This document shows, one piece after another, positions 12,675-40,712 of a stretch of 64,000 nt of DNA (position 1 is its first letter; the number at the start of each line of letters is the position of its first letter). Origin of the DNA: Alphaproteobacteria bacterium LSUCC0396 (GTDB taxonomy: Bacteria > Pseudomonadota > Alphaproteobacteria > Puniceispirillales > Puniceispirillaceae). Below the pieces are notes generated by a model. That model saw only the letters and a list, made by a program, of their open reading frames with translations. It had not been told where the DNA came from and made no database searches. The stretch is taken from contig CP166131.1 in the NCBI GenBank assembly GCA_041228345.1, positions 1,605,001 through 1,669,000 on the forward strand, written 5' to 3'. Made by a program: the position numbers and the translations under genes.

Positions 12675-13520
12675 CTAGGCTCGCGCCGGACTTGCCGGAT
12701 AGGTGCCAAGAACATGCACCTCATCCTTGGTGCAGTAAAAGCATAGTTCTTCCATTGCATTCTGCATCGCCGGATCATCAATATGTGCCTGTACATCCAT
12801 ATAGAATTGCGCCTGTTCGGCAACACCAGCCCGAATATAGGATTCGAGCTTGGTCAGATTGATGCCATTTGTGGCAAAACCACCCAACGCCTTATAAAGC
12901 GCGGCCGGAACGCTGCGTAGTTGAAAGACCAGTGTGGTCATCATCGCACCGCCGCGTTCAGGCAATTCTGGCGTTGCCGACATCAGCAAAAAGCGTGTCG
13001 TGTTATGTTCATCATCTTCGGCTGATTCAAACAGGATATCGAGGTCATAGATCTCAGCTGCTAGCCGTGAGGCAATCGCGCCGACCGTGGGATCACCCGC
13101 AGCACCAACATCTTTGGCGGCGCCGGCGGTATCGGGATGCATAACGGGCGTCAGGCCAAGTTTACGAATGCGCTCGCGGCATTGTGCCAGACCTTGCGCA
13201 TGGCTGTGAACATGGGTCAGCCCGTCGAGCGTCGCCCCTCGCGGTGCCATGATGTGATGATTTACCCGGTGGAAATGCTCGCCAATGATATAAAGCCCCG
13301 ATGACGGCAACAGATGGTGGATATCTGCAACCCGGCCCGCAGTCGAATTCTCAACCGGCACCATCGCAAGATTGGCGCGGCCTTCCTGTACTTCGGTCAG
13401 CATCGTCTCGAAGGACGCGCACGGAACAGGCTCCATATCCGGCTTAACAGCCTGACACGCCATGTGCGAATAGGCCCCGGGAACACCCTGAAAGGCAATT
13501 TTATGTGCTGCGTCTGACAT
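12675..13520 (-). CDS. pheA: Prephenate dehydratase
   Basis: Converts prephenate to phenylpyruvate in phenylalanine biosynthesis. The 281-residue monofunctional enzyme has a PDT domain beginning IAFQGVPGAYSH, with the VPVENSTAGRV motif at about 54-64 and the catalytic TTRF at 174-177. A C-terminal ACT domain (about 190-275) includes LTKLESY, the usual Phe-sensing region, in the form common in alphaproteobacteria. There is no chorismate mutase domain. Two tandem 19-bp repeats lie directly before the start. Confidence 0.95.
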   Translation of the reverse strand: MSDAAHKIAFQGVPGAYSHMACQAVKPDMEPVPCASFETMLTEVQEGRANLAMVPVENSTAGRVADIHHLLPSSGLYIIGEHFHRVNHHIMAPRGATLDGLTHVHSHAQGLAQCRERIRKLGLTPVMHPDTAGAAKDVGAAGDPTVGAIASRLAAEIYDLDILFESAEDDEHNTTRFLLMSATPELPERGGAMMTTLVFQLRSVPAALYKALGGFATNGINLTKLESYIRAGVAEQAQFYMDVQAHIDDPAMQNAMEELCFYCTKDEVHVLGTYPASPARA

Positions 13521-24723: not shown

Positions 24724-25793
24724 TGACGGACTCCTCGACCCGGCGGCGGGCTAGCCTCAGGATCAAGTGGCCATCTCGGGCGCGGCGCAAAGGCCAGATC
24801 GTCAGCGGCGTCCAGCCTTTCGAGTGCGGCCCAGGCGATCATCGCCGCATTATCAGTGCATAATTTGGCGGGCGGTACAGACAATCGAAACCCAGCGGCA
24901 TCTGCAACCTGCTGCAAACAGGTGAAAATATGTTTATTTGCGGCAACACCGCCAGCGATCACCAAGGCGGGCTGAATTCCATCTTGCGGCGGAAAAGCGT
25001 CACGAAAGCGTGCCATTGCCATTTTGGTACGGTCGGCAAGACAATCTGCGATAGCGGCTTGCAGGCTGGCGGCAAGATCGGCCAATGGCGCGGCCTCGGG
25101 CCCGCCGAGCTGGTCAAGGCGGTTGGCAAGCGCGGTTTTCAGGCCGGAAAAGGAAAAATGGCAATTTGCGCTGCCCTTTAATGGGCGCGGCAGGGCAATT
25201 GATTTTGGATTGCCGTTCTTTGCCGCCGCCTCGATGGCAGGCCCACCCGGATAGCCAAGCCCCATCGCCTTGGCGCATTTGTCAAACGCCTCGCCAGCCG
25301 CATCATCCATGGTTGTGCCATAACGGTGATATTGTCCAGGGCCAACAACAGCCAGCAATTGCGTATGGCCGCCTGACACTAGCAGCAGCAAATAGGGAAA
25401 AGCCACATCATCGGCAAGACGCGGGCTAAGTGCATGGCCTTCAAGGTGATTTACCGCGTAATAGGGAATGTTTCGGGCTGCGGCGATGGCCTTGGCCGTA
25501 ACCGTGCCGATAGCAACCCCGCCAATCAGACCCGGCCCGCCAGTGGCAGCAACCGCATCAATATCACCCATTGTCATGCCGGCGGTTGCCAATGCGTCAC
25601 GGATCACCTGATCAATCATTTCAAGATGCGCCCGTGCGGCGACTTCCGGCACAACGCCGCCATGTTTTGCATGTGTGTCAATTTGCGACGCAATTTCATT
25701 GGCGTGAATGGTCTTGTCAGCCGCGACAATGGCTGCCGCAGTTTCATCACAGCTGCTTTCAATACCAAGCATGATAACGGGGCGTTGAGCCAT
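24720..25793 (-). CDS. tsaD: tRNA N6-adenosine threonylcarbamoyltransferase TsaD
   Basis: Catalytic subunit that transfers threonylcarbamoyl to A37 of ANN-decoding tRNAs, an essential modification. The 357-residue protein starts with the ASKHA-fold LGIESSCDETAAAIV, has metal ligands H116 and H120 in NHLEGH, GGPGLIGGVAIG at about 85-96 and the C-terminal DNAAMIAW. It is the first gene of the leftward tsaD-gpsA-EVE group and is divergent from hemC, a gene pair conserved in alphaproteobacteria. Confidence 0.97.
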   Translation of the reverse strand: MAQRPVIMLGIESSCDETAAAIVAADKTIHANEIASQIDTHAKHGGVVPEVAARAHLEMIDQVIRDALATAGMTMGDIDAVAATGGPGLIGGVAIGTVTAKAIAAARNIPYYAVNHLEGHALSPRLADDVAFPYLLLLVSGGHTQLLAVVGPGQYHRYGTTMDDAAGEAFDKCAKAMGLGYPGGPAIEAAAKNGNPKSIALPRPLKGSANCHFSFSGLKTALANRLDQLGGPEAAPLADLAASLQAAIADCLADRTKMAMARFRDAFPPQDGIQPALVIAGGVAANKHIFTCLQQVADAAGFRLSVPPAKLCTDNAAMIAWAALERLDAADDLAFAPRPRWPLDPEASPPPGRGVRQ

Positions 25794-30564: not shown

Positions 30565-30638
30565 GCCGGATTAGTTAAATGGCATAACAGACCATTCGTA
30601 ATGGTTAGTTGGGGGTTCGATTCCCTCATCCGGCACCA
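30565..30638 (+). tRNA. tRNA-Thr (anticodon CGT)
   Basis: All four arms fold: acceptor GCCGGAT (30565-30571) with ATCCGGC (30628-30634), D arm GTTA/TAAC, anticodon stem GACCA/TGGTT with loop TTCGTAA, and T arm GGGGG/CCCTC with loop TTCGATT. The anticodon CGT at 30597-30599 reads ACG (Thr). The discriminator base is A30635 and CCA is encoded (30636-30638). The 3' end, CTCATCCGGCACCA, is repeated four more times in the next 10 kb and serves as the attachment core of an integrated island; the tRNA itself stays complete. Confidence 0.94.
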
Positions 30639-30696
30639 CTGACCACTGAAATGTAAGCATTTTATGTGCTAACAGGTCAGGTGGCGTACAGAATGA
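30625..30696 (+). repeat. Left arm of perfect 72-bp inverted repeat around integrase 1 (contains att core 1)
   Basis: Runs from inside the tRNA-Thr 3' end (core CTCATCCGGCACCA, 30625-30638) through the integrase leader to just past its start codon at 30693. It is the exact reverse complement of 31834-31905, compared base by base. It therefore holds the attachment core, any integrase promoter, the ribosome-binding site and the ATG. Confidence 0.95.
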
Positions 30697-31832
30697 CGTA
30701 CAATCAATCCTCATATATCCGTGTTCGCTATGGTGTTTATCACTTTGTCAGACGAGTGCCTGCTGATGTGCGGCAGTACTATCGTAGTGACAGGGTCAGT
30801 ATAAGCCTTCGTACCAAATCACCTAAAGCGGCATCTCGTGCTGCTCAATCAATCAGCCAAAGGTTGGATGACTATTGGCATGGGTTGAGATTGCAAAAGA
30901 TGGATGTGCCAGCTTTGCATCTGCTGATTGTTGATAAAGCTGACATGGAAGATAAAAGTCCAACTCTGCTTGAAGCTGTTGAGATGTATCTTCAGTTGAA
31001 GGCTAACAAAGATAGCCCAACATTTGTTCGTGCTGCTATACGCAACAGCAGGTATGTAGTTGAGGCATTGGGTAACAGACCCATCACTGCCTATGCCTCA
31101 TCTGATGCAGCTGCATTTCGTGACCATCTGTTTGCCAAAGGGCTATCATTAGGCAGTGTAAAACGCATATTCGGTTCAGTCAGGTCTATCATCAATCTCG
31201 TGATGTTGGAGCATGGTATCGAAGGTAACAACGCCTTCGCCAAAACCTATATGCCTGACCGTAATGACACTGAAGACAGACAGCCAATCCCTCAAGACAA
31301 ACTCATTCGCTTGCAGCAAAGATGTATCAAGGTAAATGATGAGAAGAGATGGTTGCTAGCTTTAATCAGCGATACCGGTATGCGGTTATCAGAGGCTGTT
31401 GGGTTATCCAAAGAAGATTTTGTGATGGATGCAAAGACACCCTACATAAGCCTTAAGCCACACGCATGGAGGCGCCTCAAGACAAAGAGCAGTCAGCGGC
31501 ATATACCACTTGTTGGGGCTGCCTTATTAGCATCTAGGAGGCTGCTACAAAATGATAGTAGCTATGCCTTTCCTTCATACTGCGATGGCAATATTTGCAA
31601 AGCAAATTCAGCGAGTGCCGCCCTCAATAAATGGATGAAAGGGGTAATTGGTAATGGCTATGTTGTCCACGGATTGAGGCATAGCCTTCGTGACCGTTTA
31701 AGAGCAGTAGAATGTCCATCAGATGTCGTTGATGCGATAGGTGGTTGGACAACCGATGGCATAGGTCACAGCTATGGTAAAGGCTATGGCGTGGAGATAT
31801 TGGCTAAATGGATGTGCAAGATTGAGTGCTAA
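30693..31832 (+). CDS. Tyrosine recombinase/integrase 1 (apparently intact)
   Basis: Phage-type site-specific recombinase of 379 residues. N-terminal arm-binding-like segment (RVRYGVYHFVRRVPADVRQYY), a SAM-like core-binding domain (about 95-185), and a catalytic domain with R231 in SDTGMRLSEAVG, lysines near 263-265, H326 and R329 in VVHGLRHSLRDRL, W352 and the probable nucleophile Y361 in GHSYG. The ATG at 30693 is preferred over GTG at 30666 because AGGTGG precedes it. It lies beside the tRNA-Thr target and is bounded by perfect inverted repeats carrying the tRNA 3' end. Homologous to integrase 2 at 35019. Confidence 0.95.
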   Translation: MTYNQSSYIRVRYGVYHFVRRVPADVRQYYRSDRVSISLRTKSPKAASRAAQSISQRLDDYWHGLRLQKMDVPALHLLIVDKADMEDKSPTLLEAVEMYLQLKANKDSPTFVRAAIRNSRYVVEALGNRPITAYASSDAAAFRDHLFAKGLSLGSVKRIFGSVRSIINLVMLEHGIEGNNAFAKTYMPDRNDTEDRQPIPQDKLIRLQQRCIKVNDEKRWLLALISDTGMRLSEAVGLSKEDFVMDAKTPYISLKPHAWRRLKTKSSQRHIPLVGAALLASRRLLQNDSSYAFPSYCDGNICKANSASAALNKWMKGVIGNGYVVHGLRHSLRDRLRAVECPSDVVDAIGGWTTDGIGHSYGKGYGVEILAKWMCKIEC

Positions 31833-31833
31833 C

Positions 31834-31905
31834 TCATTCTGTACGCCACCTGACCTGTTAGCACATAAAATGCTTACATTTCAGTGGTCAGTGGTGCCGG
31901 ATGAG
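31834..31905 (-). repeat. Right arm of perfect 72-bp inverted repeat around integrase 1 (contains att core 2, reversed)
   Basis: Starts one base after the integrase stop codon and ends with the reversed tRNA core TGGTGCCGGATGAG (31892-31905). It is the reverse complement of 30625-30696. The duplicated start codon points leftward into integrase 1 and gives only ATG AGT TAG, so no gene is expressed from it. Confidence 0.95.
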
Positions 31906-32086
31906 AAAGGTGTATTCCTTTGTGAGGCACTCACTTGTACTGCTACATAAGCAATACAGCCATTTTACGGATAGGCGAGTCATCGTCAACAGGCACATTC
32001 TGTGCGTCAGTTTGTGCGGCAGTGAAAATCTTCTGGTAATGGAATAAGCCTATAGATGCTTATCGTTATCAGTACAGGGTAAGTGA
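31890..32086 (+). repeat. Left copy of perfect 197-bp inverted repeat
   Basis: Begins in att core 2 and runs to GTAAGTGA at 32079-32086. It is exactly reverse complementary to 34749-34945 over all 197 positions when compared by eye. The two copies bracket the first cargo segment (hydroxylase and coiled-coil genes). Non-coding. Confidence 0.95.
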
Positions 32087-32433
32087 GATATGTAGGTGAT
32101 AGATACATATCCTTGTTAATGACACCTAGCTGTTCACTTACAGTGTCTTAACAATCCCAATATCAATAACACCTAAATGCCATACACCCCCCATGCATGG
32201 GCCACAGGGGATGTGTAGGTTATATGTTCATGGAGTGTGTGACAGATTAGGTGAAATAGCTGTTAACCATTTTAATCAGCCATAGAGACTCACTGACGGG
32301 GCGTATGGTTTTAGTGAGTCACGGGTACCTGAATATGGCTAGGGATTCTGTGTGAGTCTTGTTGAGTCATTAACAGGCTATTGCGTAACCCACTAATACG
32401 GGCAATCATATTGAGAGGCATAAGGAAAAGAGA
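32087..32433. other. Non-coding island spacer with decamer repeats, before the hydroxylase gene
   Basis: AT-rich, no gene. It holds four related decamers: gtaggtgata (32092, +), ctaggtgtca (32120-32129, -), ttaggtgtta (32167-32176, -) and gtaggttata (32215, +). The same four recur with nearly the same spacing at 37051-37179. A block of about 85 bp (32161-32253) recurs inverted at 33598-33667 and direct at 37125-37201. TCACTTAC at 32134-32141 is inverted to GTAAGTGA at 32079-32086. Confidence 0.8.
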
Positions 32434-33423
32434 ATGGCTGAGAACTCAAGAGATCGAAGGACATGGAATTACAGACCTGACGAGCCAATCAGGTACAATC
32501 CCCTATTTGATTGGCCTGTTGATTTGGGAAAGATTTTTAACTGGATGGTAAGACGCTGGATTACCATCTCACGTTTCTTGATGTTTAGTATTTTAGGGTT
32601 TTTGATTTACCAATATCTGACGCCAAGCCTCCAATCAATGAAGCAGCTAACTGTAGACTGGGTGCTTCTGGTTTTCCTACGTAATACGGCGCTTTTGTTT
32701 TTGGTTGCGGGATCGTTGCACCTTTACTTACACGTCCAAAAAGCACAGGGAGAAAGGTTCAAATTCCTTAAAAAGGAGATGGCAACAAACAACAAAGGCT
32801 TTAAATTCAACGATCAGGTCTATGACAATATGTTCTGGAGCATTACGAGTGGAGTAACTGTGTGGACTGGTTATGAGGTTCTGTACCTTCACGCTATGGC
32901 AAATAAGTGGATTAGCGTTGCCCCATTCTCTGAGCATCCTCTTCAATTCTTTGCTTGGATTTTATGCTTTCCTCTAATCCGTGGAACCCACTTTTATTTC
33001 ATTCATCGTCTTCTGCATCACCCTTTTCTCTATAAACACGTTCACATTACGCACCACAGAAATGTAAATACTGGGCCGTGGTCAGGAATTTCGATGCATC
33101 CAGTTGAAAATGTGATTTACCAATCATCACCACTGATACATTTTATCATCCCAACTGATCCAGTAATTGTTATCATCCACCTTGTTTTGGTAACCTTGAA
33201 CCCAGCATTTACCCATTCAGGATTTGAAAAGATCTTGAACAAAGATACCAAAATTCTAGATTCAGCTGACTTTCACCATCAGCTTCACCATAAATATTTT
33301 GATTGCAATTATGGAAACATGGACGTGCCATTAGATGTTTGGCTTGGAACACATCATGACGGCACAGATGAAGCAACTCAAAAGCTTCGCATGAAAAAAC
33401 GTCTTTCGGTAGCAAAGCCCTAG
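32434..33423 (+). CDS. Fatty acid hydroxylase/sterol desaturase superfamily membrane enzyme
   Basis: A 329-residue integral membrane di-iron enzyme of the sterol desaturase/fatty acid hydroxylase superfamily, which oxygenates or desaturates lipids or carotenoids. The histidine clusters are present: HRLLH at 191-195, HVHITHH at about 202-208 and HHQLHH at 281-286, plus a further HH near 307. About four membrane helices lie at 45-62, 76-98, 135-152 and 168-190. Codon use and base composition are more AT-rich than the core chromosome, consistent with island cargo. The substrate cannot be predicted. Confidence 0.88.
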   Translation: MAENSRDRRTWNYRPDEPIRYNPLFDWPVDLGKIFNWMVRRWITISRFLMFSILGFLIYQYLTPSLQSMKQLTVDWVLLVFLRNTALLFLVAGSLHLYLHVQKAQGERFKFLKKEMATNNKGFKFNDQVYDNMFWSITSGVTVWTGYEVLYLHAMANKWISVAPFSEHPLQFFAWILCFPLIRGTHFYFIHRLLHHPFLYKHVHITHHRNVNTGPWSGISMHPVENVIYQSSPLIHFIIPTDPVIVIIHLVLVTLNPAFTHSGFEKILNKDTKILDSADFHHQLHHKYFDCNYGNMDVPLDVWLGTHHDGTDEATQKLRMKKRLSVAKP

Positions 33424-33800
33424 ACTGATTAGTCCAGTCACAATCAAAACCCACAGATACTGCATCATCCTCACCCCAGAGCAATAACTATCACTTTGAG
33501 CATGACACAAATGACAAGAATGACAGTTGATCTATAAACCTCTGGCAACTCTTCTCATAGACGACTTTCCATTTTCTTTGTCATTTCTGTTATTCCTGTC
33601 ACACACTCCATGAACACATAACCTACACACCCCCTGTGGTCAGGCATGGCATGTAGGTGTTATTGATAGAGTAAGAGTTAACCAACATACAGATTTTAGT
33701 CTTTAATCTAAACTTACTTTTAGTTTGATTGTTAAATGAGATCAGCTTACGTTTTTGCAGCATGTTTTTGCACTGCCATCAATAAAAGAGCAACAGCCTA
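33424..33800. other. Non-coding spacer with inverted copy of the island repeat block
   Basis: 377 bp without a convincing gene. Positions 33598-33667 are the reverse complement of the block at 32161-32253/37125-37201 (shared blocks such as cacacaccccctgtggtcag and atgtaggtgttattgata). The decamer atgtaggtgt at 33651-33660 belongs to the same family as those in the neighbouring spacers. Confidence 0.7.
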
Positions 33801-34640
33801 ATGAATCAAAAAATCATTGAAAATATGATCGAAAAACTTGGTTTAGAGCCAAAGAACGGATCAGCGCTTCATTCGCTTGTTGTAAATGCTGACGATGACA
33901 AGTCTGATGTAAACCATGACAAAAGTGACATAAAAATAATTAATGATGAACTGGGTGATCTTTCTGAAAGTAAACACAAAAAGACATTCGAGGCTTTAAA
34001 GCGTTTGCAGGTTATCAGAATGACCAAACCAATCCTTGAACTAGCTATTCAAGCAAATTCCCATTCAGAGTTGTCAGCAGCCAAGTCTGCAGGCGTTGAG
34101 AGCCTTATCGATATTTCGAGTGGAGCCATAGCGAGGCTTAACACTTTGGCGCAAAATTTAAATGCATCTCGCGATAATCTTAAAGATCTCCAAGAAATGG
34201 AAGTTAAGGCTCTAATTAATGAATTCAGATTAGCAGAGCCACCAAAGGGATTAGAGGTCAGCGTGCTGTTCACATTGTTTGTTGCTGCAATTACAACTCT
34301 ATTATTTGTGTTCTTAAGCGTAAAGGATATGCTGAACGCATCAGAGGGTTATTGGGGTTTATTTGCAGGAGGAATCTTATTCCTGATTGGCTTAAATTTT
34401 TGTGTCACGATTGGAATTAGGGTTGTTAAATTTAAAAAAAATATCAACACCATTTTTGCTGAAGCCCGACGCAAGTATCTCGAAAAAGAGGGCGATAAAT
34501 TCTCCAATTTGCAAAAAGTAGTTGAAGAAGAGGCCTTCAATATTCAAAAGCGAGAATATCGGAAGGCAAGCGAAAAAAAATTCAATGAATTAATCAAAGA
34601 AGAGAGAATTATTTTAGCAACATTGAATAGCAACGGCTAA
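33801..34640 (+). CDS. Unrecognised coiled-coil protein with two central membrane helices
   Basis: A 279-residue protein I cannot assign to a family. Residues 1-60 are hydrophilic, with a small KSDVNHDKSD repeat; 60-145 is predicted alpha-helical and coiled; two hydrophobic helices lie at about 152-173 and 184-208, forming a hairpin; 210-279 is strongly charged helix (Lys/Glu-rich). Both ends should therefore face the cytoplasm. The bacterial cargo neighbours give no functional clue. Low GC and isolation between repeats mark it as island cargo. Confidence 0.75.
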   Translation: MNQKIIENMIEKLGLEPKNGSALHSLVVNADDDKSDVNHDKSDIKIINDELGDLSESKHKKTFEALKRLQVIRMTKPILELAIQANSHSELSAAKSAGVESLIDISSGAIARLNTLAQNLNASRDNLKDLQEMEVKALINEFRLAEPPKGLEVSVLFTLFVAAITTLLFVFLSVKDMLNASEGYWGLFAGGILFLIGLNFCVTIGIRVVKFKKNINTIFAEARRKYLEKEGDKFSNLQKVVEEEAFNIQKREYRKASEKKFNELIKEERIILATLNSNG

Positions 34641-34748
34641 ATAAAGATCACCTTGAAAGCCTATGGTTTCTTGATTTGTTTATCTGCTGACTCCTAATTT
34701 ATGGAAGCTGTGCTTATCATTTACATCAAGATGCAAACAACAAACGTG

Positions 34749-34945
34749 TCACTTACCCTGTACTGATAACGATAAGCATCTATAGGCTTATTCCATTACC
34801 AGAAGATTTTCACTGCCGCACAAACTGACGCACAGAATGTGCCTGTTGACGATGACTCGCCTATCCGTAAAATGGCTGTATTGCTTATGTAGCAGTACAA
34901 GTGAGTGCCTCACAAAGGAATACACCTTTCTCATCCGGCACCACT
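34749..34945 (-). repeat. Right copy of perfect 197-bp inverted repeat
   Basis: Exact reverse complement of 31890-32086. It runs into att core 3 (CTCATCCGGCACCA, 34930-34943), which belongs to the integrase 2 unit. Together the two copies make the 3-kb cargo segment invertible by homologous recombination. Confidence 0.95.
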
Positions 34946-35025
34946 TATTATGTTCCAATTGAACTACTCAATTGATTTGCAAGTATATTATTTGCAGCAG
35001 TCAATATGGGTAGACAATATGGTAG
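34930..35025 (+). repeat. Left arm of 96-bp inverted repeat around integrase 2 and SOUL gene (att core 3)
   Basis: Extends from the tRNA core to just past the integrase 2 start codon (ATG at 35019). It matches the reverse complement of 36767-36862 at 91 of 96 positions. TTGAAC and TATATT (19 bp apart) are candidate promoter hexamers within it. Beyond the shared tRNA core it is unrelated to the integrase 1 arm. Confidence 0.92.
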
Positions 35026-36170
35026 ACAAATCTTGTGCCTCATATCTCTATCAAAAGCGTGGTGTTTACTATTTTAGTAAGCAGATTCCATTTGATGTCA
35101 GGTAGCATTACAAGCGTTACAGAATAGTTATTTGCCTCAAAACCAAGTCAGCTAGCCGTGCAAAGAGGATGTGTGATTCCATCCTTCAAAGGCTGCATGA
35201 TTATTGGTTGTCGCTAAGATTGAGTGCAATGCCACTTCCTGCGGCGCATTTGGTGCATGATAGTAACGGTCATGGTCAGTTAACGAAAGGACCAACTCTA
35301 TCAGAAGCAAGGGATGCCTATATCAAGTTGAAGGGTGTTGGTAAGGACAAAACCTTCATCCGTGGTGCCTCAAGGAATGTTGATGTTGTCATCAAACATC
35401 TGGGTGACAGACCCATTGATGGCTATTCATCTGCTGATGCGGCAGCACTCCGTGATGCCATGCTGGAAAAAGGACTATCCATTGCATCGGTCAAGCGCAA
35501 CTTCTCTACCATCAGGTCAATTATCAATCTAACCATCATTGAACAGGGCCTTGATTGCGGTAATGCCTTTGCCCGCACCTTCATGCCTGAACAGGACAGG
35601 CAGAGAAGACTGCCCATTCCAATAGACTGTATCAGAGCCATACAGTCTGATTGTCGTCATATAGATGATGATATGCGCTGGCTTGTGGCTCTATTGAGTG
35701 ACACTGGCATGAGGCTTGGAGAAGCTGTTGGACTAGCAGTCAAAGACATCAATCTGGATGATGAGATACCGAACCTAAACCTCATCCCACATCCGTGGAG
35801 AAGGCTGAAAACCAAAGGTAGTGAAAGATGTGTTCCATTGGTCGGAGAAGCCCTGTGGGCGGCTTCTGGGGCGATTGAGGGTGCATCTGGAAGTGATTTC
35901 CTCTTCCCCAGATATAATCGTGCTTCATCTAGCAATGCCAACTCTGCTTCAGCAGCTATAAACAAGTGGCTAAAGCCAAGAGTGCCAGAAGGGTGTGTTA
36001 TCCATTCATTCAGACATTCAATGAGGGATAGGCTTCGTGCTGTTGAATGTCCATCAGACATCATTGATATTATCGGTGGCTGGACAACGACTGGAGTAGG
36101 TCAGAGATATGGTCTTGGACAGCCATTGGATGTCAAAGCCAAATGGATGGATAAGCTAATTCCACTCTAA
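35019..36170 (+). pseudogene. Tyrosine recombinase/integrase 2, inactivated by a nonsense codon
   Basis: Full-length homologue of integrase 1, starting MVDKSCASYLYQKRGVYYF, but with an in-frame TAG at 35103-35105. Integrase 1 has CAG (Gln) at the matching place (VPADVRQYY versus IPFDVR*HY), so a single C-to-T transition explains it. The remaining frame is open to 36170 and keeps the catalytic residues (SDTGMRLGEAVG, RRLKTKGSER, VIHSFRHSMRDRL, GQRYG). An internal ATG at 35169 could only give an N-terminally truncated protein. Its 3' end overlaps the convergent SOUL gene by 15 bp. Confidence 0.9.
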
Positions 36171-36773
36171 TGGATACATCGCCTCATTGCGTCTTAGGAA
36201 AGGCAATGTGAAAGGCGAATTATAGGTAGCTTTAATTGGCGGCCCCTTGATGACTATGCCGTCCTTATCCAATGCAGACTTCAATTTCGTATAATGCTCT
36301 TCAAAGTTACCGTCAGATGCAAAACCTGAGTATGAGATGACAGCGAAATATTCCGCTGGCAGGTCAATAATTCTAACTCTTTCATCATTTGGTTCTGGTG
36401 CATTTTGTTTTGAATACTGCATAGGCAAAAAGAACCTCATACTCATTTTGCCATCAGTCATGGATTGAGTGACTGGCGCAGTCATGTCTATTTCTTTGGA
36501 TTGAGTGACTGGAATAGTCATCTCAACTTCTTTAGAGCCTTTGTTGGCCCCTGAAATGTAGTCAAACAGCACTCTAAAACCGCTATCCTCTTCCCCGTAT
36601 GTAACTTCTGCTACCGTCCGTTGCTTGTATTGACGAACCTCATAAACATCAGTCTTTTTGACGATAGAGTATTCTGGTTCTTCATATGACATGGCTGGAA
36701 CTGATGCTGTTAAATATGCAAGAAGCGCTATTAAGAACACACTAAAACGCAATAGAGGCTTTGGCTCTACCAT
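36156..36773 (-). CDS. SOUL family haem-binding protein, exported
   Basis: A 205-residue SOUL/HBP-domain protein; family members bind haem or tetrapyrroles. A signal peptide (LLRFSVFLIALLAYLTASVPA) is followed by EEPEYSIVKKTDVYEVRQYK, paired MTIPVTQS/MTAPVTQS motifs and the C-terminal NSPFTLPFLRRNEAMYPLEW, all typical. The start codon ATGGTA at 36773 lies inside the right arm of the integrase 2 inverted repeat, so it uses a copy of the integrase's own leader and start. The longer reading to 36878 runs through the repeat and is unlikely. Confidence 0.88.
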   Translation of the reverse strand: MVEPKPLLRFSVFLIALLAYLTASVPAMSYEEPEYSIVKKTDVYEVRQYKQRTVAEVTYGEEDSGFRVLFDYISGANKGSKEVEMTIPVTQSKEIDMTAPVTQSMTDGKMSMRFFLPMQYSKQNAPEPNDERVRIIDLPAEYFAVISYSGFASDGNFEEHYTKLKSALDKDGIVIKGPPIKATYNSPFTLPFLRRNEAMYPLEWN

Positions 36774-36862
36774 ATTGTCTACCAACATTGACTGCCGCAA
36801 ATAATATGCTTGCAAATCAATTGAGTAGTTCAATTGGAACACAATAAGTGGTGCCGGATGAG
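36767..36862 (-). repeat. Right arm of 96-bp inverted repeat (att core 4, reversed); SOUL leader
   Basis: Reverse complement of 34930-35025 with five mismatches. Ends in the reversed core TGGTGCCGGATGAG at 36849-36862. On the minus strand it supplies the leader and ATG of the SOUL gene. Confidence 0.92.
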
Positions 36863-37225
36863 GGTGGTTATGTGCCACTTAAATGCACCAATTATAGTGT
36901 TATACAAGCAATAGCCTAGATTCAAATACCTGCTTGTTCATGTCAACAGGCACATATTTGTCTACCGTTTTGTCTACCTCACAGAAATCTTCGGGTAATT
37001 GAATAAGCCTATTGATGGTTATCGTTATCAGTACAGGGTAAGTGAGTAATGTAGGTGATAGATCCATATCCTTGTTAATGACACCTAGCTGTTCACTTAC
37101 AGTGCCTTAACAATCTCAATATCAATAACAGCTACATGCCATACACCCATGCCTGACCACAGGGGGTGTGTAGGTTATATGTTCATGGGGTGTGTGACAG
37201 ATTAGGAGGAATAGGGTGTTTGAAA
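36863..37225. other. Non-coding spacer; diverged direct copy of 31906-32262
   Basis: No gene. The first part is diverged; from about 36998 it closely follows the first spacer (taatgacacctagctgttca, gtgtgtaggttatatgttca). The decamer family recurs as gtaggtgata (37051), ctaggtgtca (37079-37088, -), gtagctgtta (37126-37135, -) and gtaggttata (37170). Confidence 0.8.
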
Positions 37226-38650
37226 CTAAAATGCAGAAGTTTTTCCAGGGCACTCTTGGAAAGCGAGGCCCCAGGCATTTTGCAATCTCTCAACTGGAAT
37301 CTTTTCTGATGTTGCGAACTTCACATTCATATCAGTTGAAATCATGTACCACGCTGACCCAACATAATCCCTATAAATTCTGAACGCTGTCATATTCAAG
37401 GAACGGTTATCAATTCTTCTGTTGCCGTCAGTTAGAATGCAAGGCTGTTCTTCAATCCATCGTAGTCTCTTTAATCCCTCTGGATAACCTGTCGTCGCAA
37501 AATTATACACCTGCTCCATCAGCGTTTTTTGTCTATTTTGATAGTCTGACCAATCTTGTGCAGCTTCCAAACGAGTTGCTTCTGCTGCCTCTTTTCGGGC
37601 CTGTTCTGCAGCTGCTTCAGCCACACGCCTTCTTTCTGTTTCTGCAATACGCGCAACTAAAACCCGTTCACCCTTATCAAATATGCTCTTCAAAACAGGG
37701 TGCGCTTCTTTCCAAATGAGCATCAATGTGAATGTAGAAGTGTTCCAGCCATTCAACGAACCGCTATTGTAATCAAAGTCTATGCAGCTTTGTGAATCAA
37801 GTGGCACTCTCCGTTCAATTATCTTCCCAGTATTGTCAACAAACTGTTCAATCCGAAATTGCTGCTCAATACATTTTACTCCACGATAACCCAGATTACC
37901 CAGAAAGTGCCTTGTCAGTTTTTTATAAAATCCGGGTGATGCTATTTCTTTTTTAGCAAGGCATTCGGCTAGGTTGTCATTTGCTGCTCGATGAATGTTC
38001 TCCATAAGCGAGAAACGCCTTAATTGGATGCCTTTCTCTTGAAACCTCTGGCCAATCCATATGCTAGCGACATTGATGCCGTCCCAATCAAAATCAGAGT
38101 TCATGGTATCCAACGCGTGATATTCATCTGAACTAAAATCAAAAAAGGGATGGGAAAACACGGCACATATATCATTTGCTGTGGCAAGCATTCCTAGCTT
38201 GGCATATTTAGTATCGCCATAACCCGTTGTTGGAGACCAGAATTCTGTCGTCGTGGTTTTTGCGGTTTCAACCTCCGCTCTTTTTGTAGCAAAATGATCA
38301 GTAGGAGTTTCAATGCATTGCAGTGGAACATCTTGATTGTCCCGAAGAACTCTCCCTGTCAAACGGCTTATTGAAAATCTGTTTTTGTTTTTCATGTAAT
38401 TCACAAAATCATTGGATACTTCAAATTCCGTGAGGATGGTTTTAATTTCACGGCCTACCTTACCTTGTTCGATTAGGTCTGGTTCCTGAATCCGCTGGAC
38501 CAAGTTTTTTTTGGCGTCATCATGCTCAAAAACAATCTGATACTCTCCGCCAGACCCTTTGCAGTGGAAGAATATTGATGGATTTGCAAAGGCGTGAGAG
38601 GCGCCTGCCAAATACAAGCCGAATACCAACAAGGTTAAGACTCTCATCAT
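37226..38650 (-). CDS. Secreted protein of unknown function
   Basis: A 474-residue protein with a cleavable signal peptide (MMRVLTLLVFGLYLAGASHAFA) and no family I recognise. The mature part has scattered cysteines and aromatic residues, a charged helical segment at about 350-385 (AETERRRVAEAAAEQ) and a final Cys-containing globular region. ATG at 38650 follows GAGGTG at good spacing; GTG at 38659 is an alternative. It lies in the AT-rich island and is transcribed toward the repeats. A periplasmic or surface role is inferred from the signal peptide only. Confidence 0.78.
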   Translation of the reverse strand: MMRVLTLLVFGLYLAGASHAFANPSIFFHCKGSGGEYQIVFEHDDAKKNLVQRIQEPDLIEQGKVGREIKTILTEFEVSNDFVNYMKNKNRFSISRLTGRVLRDNQDVPLQCIETPTDHFATKRAEVETAKTTTTEFWSPTTGYGDTKYAKLGMLATANDICAVFSHPFFDFSSDEYHALDTMNSDFDWDGINVASIWIGQRFQEKGIQLRRFSLMENIHRAANDNLAECLAKKEIASPGFYKKLTRHFLGNLGYRGVKCIEQQFRIEQFVDNTGKIIERRVPLDSQSCIDFDYNSGSLNGWNTSTFTLMLIWKEAHPVLKSIFDKGERVLVARIAETERRRVAEAAAEQARKEAAEATRLEAAQDWSDYQNRQKTLMEQVYNFATTGYPEGLKRLRWIEEQPCILTDGNRRIDNRSLNMTAFRIYRDYVGSAWYMISTDMNVKFATSEKIPVERLQNAWGLAFQECPGKTSAF

Positions 38651-38844
38651 CCCAAACACCTCACCGTCTAAACAACAACAGCCTAATCAACCGCCATATA
38701 CCTCTCAATATGATTGCTCGTATCATTGGGTTACGCAATAGCCTGTCCAAGAGGGTAAGCGAGGTGCTAATTCTGGCAGGGCTACTATCTACCGTAGGGA
38801 AATTTAGTTAGTCATCTGCCAGCAGGTGAACAAAAGCGTGTCAG

Positions 38845-39963
38845 CTATACAGCAGCTTTCTCATTACGCTTCCGCATCGCATTCGCAATTAACACATAAC
38901 CAGTACCGACCATACCGCCCAGCACAACAGCCATAGCAAGTATCAGCATCCGTTTGCTTTTGTTTTCAAACTCTGTTGCTGCAACTGCTATTACGACAGC
39001 AGAAAAGTCATCACCTCTCATCACAGGGGTGTCAGCAAACAATGTTTCAGCCCGTTCAAGCGTTTTGTCTTGCTCTAACCCTCGCCTCTTTTGCTCCAAC
39101 TCCAGCAAACCGCTCACAAATGCCTTTTTATTCTCTCTTGCCTCAATAAGCGCAATTTCCTTTTCAATTGCTTCATATCCTCGCAAGTAAAAAGGCGTAT
39201 CCGTTATAACGTTGGTAACAACACTATTCTTTCCACCAAAGCTCTGCGTTTCAATTGTGTTGTTTTTAACGCCAAGCTTGCGAGCTATAGCAGATTGTTC
39301 CCTTAGAAAAGCCAACCTATCGTCAGCCTTGCGATCATAATCACTCAACGCATTGTCAATCGTTGTGGATATATCTTCAATTTCAAATGCTTTCTTCTTT
39401 TGAGAAGCCGCTAGCGTTGTTGAGAAATCAGCTTTAACAAGCTCTTTGACATTTTGGTTAGCTTTGGCTTTCACATCAGCCAGGACATTTAGCCATTTTT
39501 CTTCATCGTTGAACTCAAATTCTATTGCCCAATGCTTACGGCTCTCGCCTTTAGCTGTTCCATCAACATTTATTGGGGGTAGCAAACTTATCTCTGCTGC
39601 AAGTTCAACGATAGCGTTGTTGAACTCTGTTTCTGTTTCGTAATCATTTTTGTCTAAAACAGCGTACTTTCGAAAAGCGTCTTCAAATAGAAGTCTGGCA
39701 TCAAGCTGCTCTATGAATAGCCCTCGCAGGTTAGCAGCGCTAACCTCAAAAAAACCAATAGAGTTCGATATCTGATATCGATTAACCATATCAGAGGTAA
39801 TTGGCTTTACTTCTGTTTTTGCGATGAAAGAAGGTGCTGGTTGGGTAAGAAAGAAACCTACAACGCCCAAAACAGCTATTACAATGACACGAGCGATTTT
39901 GAATTTGCCATCCCAAATGGTTTGGAAAAATTCCAATAAATCAATTTCGTCAGTATCTTGCAT
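38845..39963 (-). CDS. Wzz-like chain-length determinant family protein
   Basis: A 372-residue inner-membrane protein with the polysaccharide co-polymerase layout: cytoplasmic EIDLLEFFQTIWDGKFKI, membrane helix at about 24-40, a proline after it (QPAPSF), a large periplasmic alpha-helical domain with long coiled coil (about 190-320) and a second helix near 340-361 followed by a basic tail. Such proteins set O-antigen or exopolysaccharide length. No polymerase or glycosyltransferase gene lies in the island, so it may modify a system encoded elsewhere. Confidence 0.8.
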   Translation of the reverse strand: MQDTDEIDLLEFFQTIWDGKFKIARVIVIAVLGVVGFFLTQPAPSFIAKTEVKPITSDMVNRYQISNSIGFFEVSAANLRGLFIEQLDARLLFEDAFRKYAVLDKNDYETETEFNNAIVELAAEISLLPPINVDGTAKGESRKHWAIEFEFNDEEKWLNVLADVKAKANQNVKELVKADFSTTLAASQKKKAFEIEDISTTIDNALSDYDRKADDRLAFLREQSAIARKLGVKNNTIETQSFGGKNSVVTNVITDTPFYLRGYEAIEKEIALIEARENKKAFVSGLLELEQKRRGLEQDKTLERAETLFADTPVMRGDDFSAVVIAVAATEFENKSKRMLILAMAVVLGGMVGTGYVLIANAMRKRNEKAAV

Positions 39964-40698
39964 AGGATCCCGCTTTACATTCTTAGTGCTGTTTAAAACT
40001 GTATTTCATTTACTAGTAAAATTTACTTTTAATATCACGATAATGTTCCATTTGGGAAATCAGTTTTTTATTTTTCCTGGGGATACCATTTATAGCTTTG
40101 AATAATGTTTTAGAAATTTCAAATCACAAGCATAACAACGGTACTGTAGGGTACTACTACACTAAATAATAGTAATAGATTCTTCCCTAACGATCAGAAC
40201 CATATTATCTTTGCTAATGCATTTAAATGTACATTTAGATGTATCACTTAAGTGTAATTACTGCGTAGCTTAATACACGTACCTATCCATACGTACCTCA
40301 CTTGTATGCCTAATACGCCTTCGGCAATGACTCCGTATAAGCCTCATACAGGCTCTATTGTATGTGTCCGGTATCCGTGATTCAGAGTGATGCCAAAGGC
40401 TGTCAGTGAGCCTTTGTGAGTCATGCACGGCCTGTTTGTGATGCATTGTAACTGCGCATGTTAGTGACCCATTCAAATGACCTAAAAGACAAGTGATAGT
40501 GGTTTAGAGTGTCAAATACTGATCTGTGTAATTGTCTATGTATATATACGTGTGGCAGGGGGACGGATCACGCCGCCCCATAGGTGTGAAACAAACTGAG
40601 AAACATCTGTGCGTGTTGACAGCAAATTTATGACACATAAACTGACTGTGTTCGTGCAGTTCCATTGATAATGGTGCCTAAGTGAGGCAAACAGCATC
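39964..40698. other. Non-coding AT-rich island end
   Basis: About 735 bp after the Wzz-like gene with no convincing gene on either strand. The 68- and 91-residue open frames here lack recognisable features or ribosome-binding sites. It contains no copy of the decamer-rich spacer found elsewhere in the island that I could see. Confidence 0.5.
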
Positions 40699-40712
40699 CT
40701 CATCCGGCACCA
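40699..40712 (+). other. Fifth copy of the tRNA-Thr 3' end (att core 5), probable distal island boundary
   Basis: CTCATCCGGCACCA, identical to 30625-30638 (15 bp match if the preceding C is counted) and in the same orientation as the tRNA. It is followed by the leader and decayed start of a third integrase, as in the other two + oriented copies. Confidence 0.85.

Follow-up and report, generated by a model that had tools for sequence, protein, structure and literature searches.

Two opposed attachment sites per element in a tRNA-integrated stack of tyrosine-integrase elements from SAR116 bacteria and roseobacters

The window analysed here is a stretch of 64,000 nucleotides (nt) from Alphaproteobacteria bacterium LSUCC0396 (GenBank assembly GCA_041228345.1, contig CP166131.1, positions 1,605,001 to 1,669,000 of the forward strand), and it holds an island at a tRNA-Thr(CGT) gene. 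Comparison of its repeats with those of related loci shows the island to be a tRNA-integrated stack of elements from one clade of tyrosine integrases. The unit reads tRNA-core-A-int-A'-core'-B'-cargo-B-core, in which the core is the tRNA 3' end, int is the integrase gene, A and B are the right and left arms of the attachment site and primes mark inverted copies. By the same comparison, each element carries two near-identical, opposed attachment sites (attP, B:core:A), so that its int half is framed by A and its cargo half by B. We regard this structure as well supported, and set out below a mechanism that might account for it.

The core sequence, CTCATCCGGCACCA, occurs exactly at 30625 (+), 31892 (-), 34930 (+), 36849 (-) and 40699 (+), which confirms the five strictly alternating copies of the tRNA-Thr 3' end reported by the first-pass annotation. 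These copies are confined to the island and do not reflect a background frequency over the chromosome, as the exact 14-mer is found at just these five places in the whole one-contig genome (2,592,803 base pairs (bp)), with three further copies at one mismatch, one of them inside the window at 13350. When up to two mismatches are allowed, CTCATCCGGCACCA has seven sites in the window against a mean of 0.5 in shuffled sequence, and this comparison together with the genome-wide count rules out chance repeats as the source of the cores. Three of the four segments between cores end in inverted repeats: 30625-30696/31834-31905 (72 nt with the core, 100% identity), which encloses int1; 31890-32086/34749-34945 (197 nt, 100%), which encloses the first cargo block; and 34930-35026/36766-36862 (97 nt, 95%), which encloses int2 and a SOUL gene. 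The ends of the fourth segment (D and E) do not resemble each other. Each read in its own orientation, the arms at the five cores are tRNA:core:A, B:core:A (inverted), B:core:C, D:core:C (inverted) and E:core:F. Because B:core:A arms stand on both sides of core 2, the inverted copy behind int1 is a complete attP and not a half site, and in the excised circle of element 1 it would face a near-identical attP formed by the joined ends. Element 1 is complete. In element 2 the integrase is broken and the right end does not match. The first-pass annotation also placed an integrase or its remnant after each + copy; this holds at 30625 and 34930 but not at 40699, where tblastn gives no recognisable remnant beyond 40712 (best E 0.066), though the left arm there bears a promoter-like signal.

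A quirk of this window is ruled out, as the design recurs elsewhere in the same genome. LSUCC0396 has 11 integrase matches at six tRNA genes. At four of these (Phe, Arg-ACG, Leu-TAA and the Leu-GAG array) int is followed by an inverted core and arm; the Gly locus has a weaker repeat (57 nt, 82%) without an inverted 14-mer, and its direct core lies 15.8 kilobases (kb) away. Since the cores of the Leu-GAG array read + + - + + +, strict alternation is no general rule among stacks, and further exceptions are locus L161, in which a direct core precedes the inverted one, and L074 and L102, with two inverted cores each. At Phe, Arg-ACG and Leu-TAA (L020, L023 and L025), the A repeats are 97-100% identical and int is intact at the first two and broken at Leu-TAA. 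In relatives, the site occupied in the window (the tRNA-Thr behind HemY) is often targeted and counts as a hotspot of integration: an integrase match was found in 7 of the 10 such loci with at least 600 nt downstream, two of the matches being partial.

To survey related integrases, species genomes were scanned with an integrase alignment; 299 candidates encoded a relative, of which the best 80 loci were kept. Among genomes of the family, 39 of 61 had an integrase match. Pooled with further loci and with LSUCC0396, these gave 143 matches of at least 850 nt, or 97 non-redundant integrases at 95% identity, of which 65 are read away from an adjacent tRNA, one is read toward it (L066) and 31 have no tRNA found alongside. 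The 34 tRNA-adjacent integrases with at least 2.5 kb downstream formed the assessable set. An inverted 14-mer (at most one mismatch) lies behind int in 30 of them, an A repeat of at least 40 nt in 29 and one or the other in 31; a direct core lies within the stretch covered in 10 and not in 24. Both are missing in three: L069 and L081, in which the integrase is interrupted by stops, and L072. The hosts are mostly SAR116 bacteria, with roseobacters as well, and 13 tRNA types are used. In an integrase tree of 94 tips the feature is present in 68 and lacking in 8, with 18 not assessable; given this spread and the scattered absences, it looks like an old, maintained property of the integrase clade. 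The idea in the first-pass annotation of integrase modules with two inverted att sites, stacked by repeated insertion, is thereby borne out in relatives, which show inverted cores, as well as in the window.

The pattern is not shared by the controls. None of 10 tRNAs without an integrase of the family, a small sample, has an inverted core. Five tRNA/tmRNA islands of Escherichia coli K-12 given the same treatment (with the ssrA 3' end placed by hand) have neither an inverted core nor a repeat around int, and three of them have the usual direct core. At E 1e-20, the integrase gave two partial hits in 50,697 phage records and one hit in 72,556 plasmid records (that of Ruegeria sp. TM1040), and six loci with the integrase in 2.9 million viral contigs.

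Ten complete elements measure 3.1-15.5 kb, with an int half of 1.3-3.7 kb and a cargo half of 1.8-13.9 kb. In all ten, and at the Thr locus of LSUCC0396, the tRNA 3'-end core is directly repeated at the far end, and the attP copies of the ten would form inverted repeats of 255-1216 nt that are 98-100% identical. In the tRNA-Phe element of Ruegeria sp. TM1040 (NC_008043), an A repeat of 85 nt and a B repeat of 1148 nt, both at 100% identity and the latter with a BRO gene in each arm, surround a type I restriction system, and in Ruegeria sp. HKCCA6707 the B repeat reaches 2316 nt (99.96%), with the contig ending at the direct core. The two copies of an arm are clearly kept alike. When 44 elements were compared in 176 pairs (integrase identity at least 55%, arms of equal length, pairs not independent), 2447 of the 2600 A-arm differences between elements had their mirror image in the inverted arm; arm identity has a median of 99% within an element (20 of 44 at 100%, lowest 75%), compared with 79.4% between elements. 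The best 12-mer common to A and B is matched by at most 3 of 60 shuffles in 8 of 10 elements (all except Thr1 and LeuGAG2 of LSUCC0396), but as the opposite orientation scores equally in 4 of 10, the test does no more than hint at arm-type integrase sites.

Integrases that are 85-94% identical occur in different tRNAs (L078, L083 and L157 in Leu-CAG and Thr-CGT; L036, L046, L050 and L073 in Gly-TCC, Phe and Leu-GAG). In these target-switched loci the internal inverted core is an exact match to the present tRNA, that is, both cores have changed together.

Transcription of int runs away from the tRNA in 65 of the 66 tRNA-adjacent cases, and the single integrase read toward its tRNA (L066) lies between ends that are alike in the core alone, so it is not a plain flip. 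Cargo orientation varies. Homologues of one cargo gene lie in opposite directions in G001 and L056 as against L058, L074 and L162, and those of another in the Arg element of G015 as against G056 Leu-CAG and L078; the cargo of L050 is inverted relative to that of L074 over 1108 nt at 87% identity, about 240 nt of which is B arm. The proposal that the element is capable of inversion thus has partial support: cargo was found both ways relative to int, but the int half was never seen simply flipped. The int half's longest extra open reading frame (ORF) converges on int in 18 of 23 cases; 14 of those 18 frames begin at most 71 nt from the inverted core, where an internal promoter would read them.

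Such a promoter may lie in arm B. We tallied signals in 40 left arms, 38 from the pooled set together with D and E of the window. TTGAC stands 81-86 nt from the core in 32 of the 40, and in 28 of the 34 arms that resemble one another by less than 70%. In 28 of the 32, TAnnnT comes after a spacer of exactly 16 nt, compared with at most four at any other spacing tried. Within the zone 60-120 nt from the core, TTGAC is found in 33 of 40 arms, whereas shuffles give 7% and the reverse direction 2 of 40. The -10 position has an information content of 1.26 bits, the spacer one of 0.37. The consensus is TTGAC-N-16-TAnnnT, about 84 nt from the core and directed across it, and a promoter scan of the window returned sites at this same place in B, B' and E. 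The A arms (n = 65) have no promoter excess (9 versus 9.6 expected), and none of the tRNA sides examined has the signal. With the signal conserved in B, no excess in the A arms and none on the tRNA sides examined, the promoter of int probably lies on the far side of its attachment site.

These observations could be joined in a latch, to which we give a probability of about 0.5: a promoter in B drives int in the circle, integration severs that promoter and the inverted attP destabilises the reverse orientation. We infer three steps: the signal acts as the promoter of int, integration cuts it off, and the internal copy opposes int and destabilises the reverse orientation. In the circle, the arm B promoter would fire across the core into int and favour integration. 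Integration with int pointing away from the tRNA would part int from arm B, whose place the tRNA end would take, and the promoter of the internal inverted attP would then be directed at the 3' end of int, or at a gene lying convergently there. After integration in the opposite sense, or a flip of the int half, int would sit under the internal promoter and stay on until excision or a flip back. The away orientation would thus be the sole stable resting state, while the cargo half, framed by equal B arms, would be free to lie either way, and repeated landings at the same tRNA end would stack elements into alternating cores. A double-stranded circle with two identical attP should integrate both ways, yet 65 of 66 point away; the B promoter would make this bias understandable, because an integrase pointing toward the tRNA would sit behind the internal promoter copy. 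An intact integrase under a neighbour's B promoter would be expected to do harm, and integrases that lie behind a neighbour's B signal are broken in four of six cases, versus two of ten without the signal, and 61 of the 65 tRNA-adjacent integrases have no stop in the matched part. Three more signal-bearing cores (the Leu-GAG core at 25719 and the Thr core at 40699 in LSUCC0396, and G015 Phe at +3146) are followed by fragments or nothing.

Several findings weigh against the latch or the structure behind it. Of the six integrases behind a neighbour's signal two look intact, L082 is loosely placed, age is confounded and the numbers are small. The signal could be shared ancestry or a protein-binding site instead of a promoter; arms D, L073, L104, L099, L085 and others have no good match to it; and a general promoter scan of the region found 13 sites, fewer than the shuffle mean of 24.8, so that the window scan alone is no proof. 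No plain flipped int half was found among the 66 tRNA-adjacent integrases, so that inversion of this half is hypothetical. The two orientations of cargo could stem from separate acquisition, and the 6 kb compared at incomplete loci may exceed the element. L072 has an integrase without stops and yet no repeat, and the Phe element of G015 is an outlier in which the A ends are alike in the core alone (core and B arm are repeated). In LSUCC0396 there is no direct core at Phe, where a whole-genome scan found the core just twice, and none within about 90 kb at Arg-ACG or Leu-TAA. Nor was a convincing far B partner found within about 90 kb at these three loci, the nearest to one being a single 54-nt match at 87% for Phe. 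The latch does not explain how their right ends could have gone without decay of the left ends. The right flank of Arg-ACG adjoins a tRNA in none of the 14 loci examined in relatives, so the insertion boundaries of loci without a direct core cannot be fixed.

In having a tRNA 3'-end core, int beside the tRNA and, when complete, a far direct core, the elements resemble tRNA islands with lambda-type integrases (ICEclc, CP4-57 and DLP12). However, those islands have a single attP per element, whereas here a second complete, inverted attP lies behind int, which the five E. coli K-12 islands do not have. In the yeast 2-micron circle (FLP/FRT), near-identical inverted repeats with recombination sites split the circle; the elements here differ in integrating into tRNA genes, and no flipped int half was found. 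Recombination cores also alternate in orientation between the segments of the R64 shufflon (Rci), but the segments here are whole mobile elements. The closest structures, Tn1549 Int and lambda Int, have only 13-18% identity among their Foldseek rows. For ICEclc, PMC2704930 describes how a promoter is handed to intB13 on circularisation, much as we infer for int here. CTX-type filamentous phages likewise have two opposed attP copies (attP1/attP2), which according to PMC3089051 lie about 90 nt apart in phages that have no integrase of their own and use host XerC/XerD; by contrast with these phages and their dif target, the elements here have their own int gene between the attP copies and target a tRNA. 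Tycheposons are, as here, tRNA-bordered islands of aquatic bacteria with a tyrosine recombinase and nutrient cargo, and the passages of PMC10872708 on which this comparison is based mention no inverted site. We found no description of a twin inverted attP design in open PubMed Central text, and no mention of DUF6538 there; subscription papers and bioRxiv were not covered, so absence from print is not established.

The strongest alternative to the latch, although we consider it unlikely, is a CTX-like attP that folds from a single strand: the inverted copies would anneal into one double-stranded site, Int would exchange one strand pair with the tRNA and replication would fix the product, with the choice of strand setting the orientation of int. 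The core order + - + and the fixed int orientation would follow directly, the arms keep the complementarity that is needed, the int module as a single strand folds in computation into a full A:core stem, and CTX phages, as described in PMC3089051 and PMC5357621, offer a precedent of two opposed attP with single-strand exchange. The B signal and the two cargo orientations would be left unexplained, however, and repeats of 1.1-2.3 kb far exceed the likely need of a folded site; the cargo proteins scanned, which do not include every ORF, contain no recognisable relaxase, rolling-circle Rep or phage coat protein, and some elements have PrimPol/DUF5906 or AAA_25. It is quite unlikely that Int or RecA recombines the inverted attP pair within the circle and so flips the halves for amplification or cargo variation, in the manner of the 2-micron circle or the shufflon. 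Near-perfect inverted repeats do enclose the recombinase gene, cargo lies in both orientations, some cargo has primase- or helicase-like genes and, by the account in PMC5495485, inverted tRNA sites allow an archaeal integrase to invert the DNA between them in vitro, but the flipped int half that such a process would produce was not found. Pairing of attP with attP is, to our knowledge, not expected of lambda-type integrases, which speaks against the same explanation.

Cassette exchange in nature, by which the cargo half between inverted att sites would be swapped among elements through double recombination, appears very unlikely. Engineered exchange cassettes with inverted attP, used in fly genetics, are a parallel, and one int clade carrying unrelated cargo, the variable cargo orientation and the unlike left arms D and E in a single window segment would all fit; yet exchange predicts neither the orientation of int nor the B signal, and turnover of whole elements accounts for the variety of cargo too. 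An artefact of assembly or amplification is extremely improbable. Many relatives are single-cell genomes by their record titles, and single-cell amplification is prone to chimeras, of which L033 is possibly one (a 360-nt inverted repeat, 1946-2305/7514-7873, holds its whole tRNA-Leu gene). However, isolate genomes contradict this reading: the same structure is found in the one-contig LSUCC0396 genome, in G015 (a single contig of 2,753,527 bp) and in the complete megaplasmid record of Ruegeria sp. TM1040. The elements are, moreover, unlike in sequence and alike in design.

The integrase has DUF6538 and Phage_integrase (PF00589) domains. R240, K272, H335, R338 and W361 are invariant in sets A1 and A2, and Y370 is invariant in A1 and conserved at 90% or more in A2; we take these to be the R-K-H-R-W-Y catalytic residues of integrases. 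The nearest solved structures are Tn1549 Int by profile and Tn1549 Int and lambda Int by Foldseek, for which the structure model was moderate (mean predicted local distance difference test (pLDDT) 80.7, predicted template modelling score (pTM) 0.50). Among the ORFs scanned, cargo includes a fatty-acid-hydroxylase-family protein; GH32 with an ABC transporter, a ROK regulator and a PrimPol/DUF5906 protein; and AlpA, AAA_25 proteins, TctA, DctM, sulfatases, EamA transporters and a subtilase. Neither relaxase nor conjugation genes were seen among the seven window proteins or in the cargo scanned from nine of the ten complete elements (all but L050, with most but not all ORFs of some others covered).

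Coordinates of the window island are given in Table 1. The ORF of int1 as listed opens at GTG 30666, and the ATG at 30693 agrees with homologues. The SOUL ORF (listed as 36156-36878) extends from the inverted arm C', and its ATG at 36773 mirrors the int2 start.

Table 1. Parts of the tRNA-Thr island, in window positions.
Feature	Position	Strand	Remarks
tRNA-Thr(CGT)	30565..30638	+	last 14 nt (30625-30638) are core 1, attL side
Arm A, right attP arm of element 1	30639..30709	+	from repeat comparison
int1, tyrosine recombinase with DUF6538 N-terminus	30693..31832	+	transcribed away from tRNA
Arm A', inverted A	31834..31891	-	72 nt with core, 100%
Core 2, inverted, centre of second attP (B:core:A)	31892..31905	-	
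Arm B', inverted left attP arm	31906..32086	-	
Promoter-like TTGACG-16-TAAAAT in B'	31962..31989	-	points across core 2 into int1 3' end (antisense)
Cargo of element 1, fatty-acid-hydroxylase-family protein (PF04116)	32434..33423	+	
Cargo of element 1, 279-residue protein without Pfam match	33801..34640	+	
Arm B of element 1	34749..34929	+	100% inverted repeat with B'
Promoter-like TTGACG-16-TAAAAT in B	34846..34873	+	84 nt from core 3, aimed across it into next element
Core 3, attR of element 1 and start of element 2	34930..34943	+	
Arm C, right arm of element 2	34944..35026	+	
int2	35019..36170	+	disrupted by in-frame TAG 35103-35105
SOUL haem-binding-family gene	36156..36773	-	convergent with int2
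Arm C', inverted C	36766..36848	-	95%
Core 4, inverted	36849..36862	-	
Arm D', left arm of element 2	36863..37045	-	TTGACA 84 nt from core, without TAnnnT at 16 nt
Cargo, 477-residue protein without Pfam match	37226..38659	-	
Cargo, Wzz/GNVR-like protein (below Pfam cut-offs)	38845..39963	-	
Arm E (200 nt taken), left arm unlike D	40499..40698	+	promoter-like TTGACA-16-TAAACT at 40616-40643
Core 5	40699..40712	+	no recognisable integrase follows

Further repeats were seen at these and other loci. In the window, cargo blocks of different elements have additional repeats in common, at 33596-33649/37147-37200, 32373-32425/38694-38746 and 33502-33605/40950-41053 (54, 53 and 104 nt; 81-96%). Near the Phe element of G015 (L152) lies a 931-nt inverted repeat of 100% identity (8769-9699/11801-12731). 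In Ruegeria conchae TW15 (L099), the tRNA-Phe end recurs 5.5 kb downstream as a direct repeat of 47 nt (9950-9996/15447-15492), and a match to the 14-mer core at one mismatch was not found there. The Arg-TCG elements L056, L074 and L037 have similar A arms with int halves of 2337, 1685 and 2182 nt and convergent frames of differing size, differences that suggest gene exchange inside the int half. The contigs of L173, L194, L097, L100 and L103 (G062) stop at or soon after the tRNA end, the integrase or the direct core, as would be expected if long inverted repeats break assemblies.

Through the twin attP, one class of mobile islands in SAR116 bacteria and roseobacters can be recognised by a simple signature in the sequence; their cargo includes sugar uptake, sulfatases, transporters and a restriction system. 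Such islands need to be delimited differently, since an inverted core copy is not the end of an element, and the repeats may be the reason why contigs in marine assemblies break at tRNA genes. If the folded single-strand attP were true, it would be a further independent case of single-strand site-specific integration besides integron cassettes and CTX phage, used by an element's own integrase with the int gene inside the loop, and widespread in the tRNA genes of abundant ocean bacteria. If the latch is true, the elements would contain a self-setting switch whose control element is the attachment sites themselves. The design poses the testable question of why a tRNA integrase retains two opposed attP.

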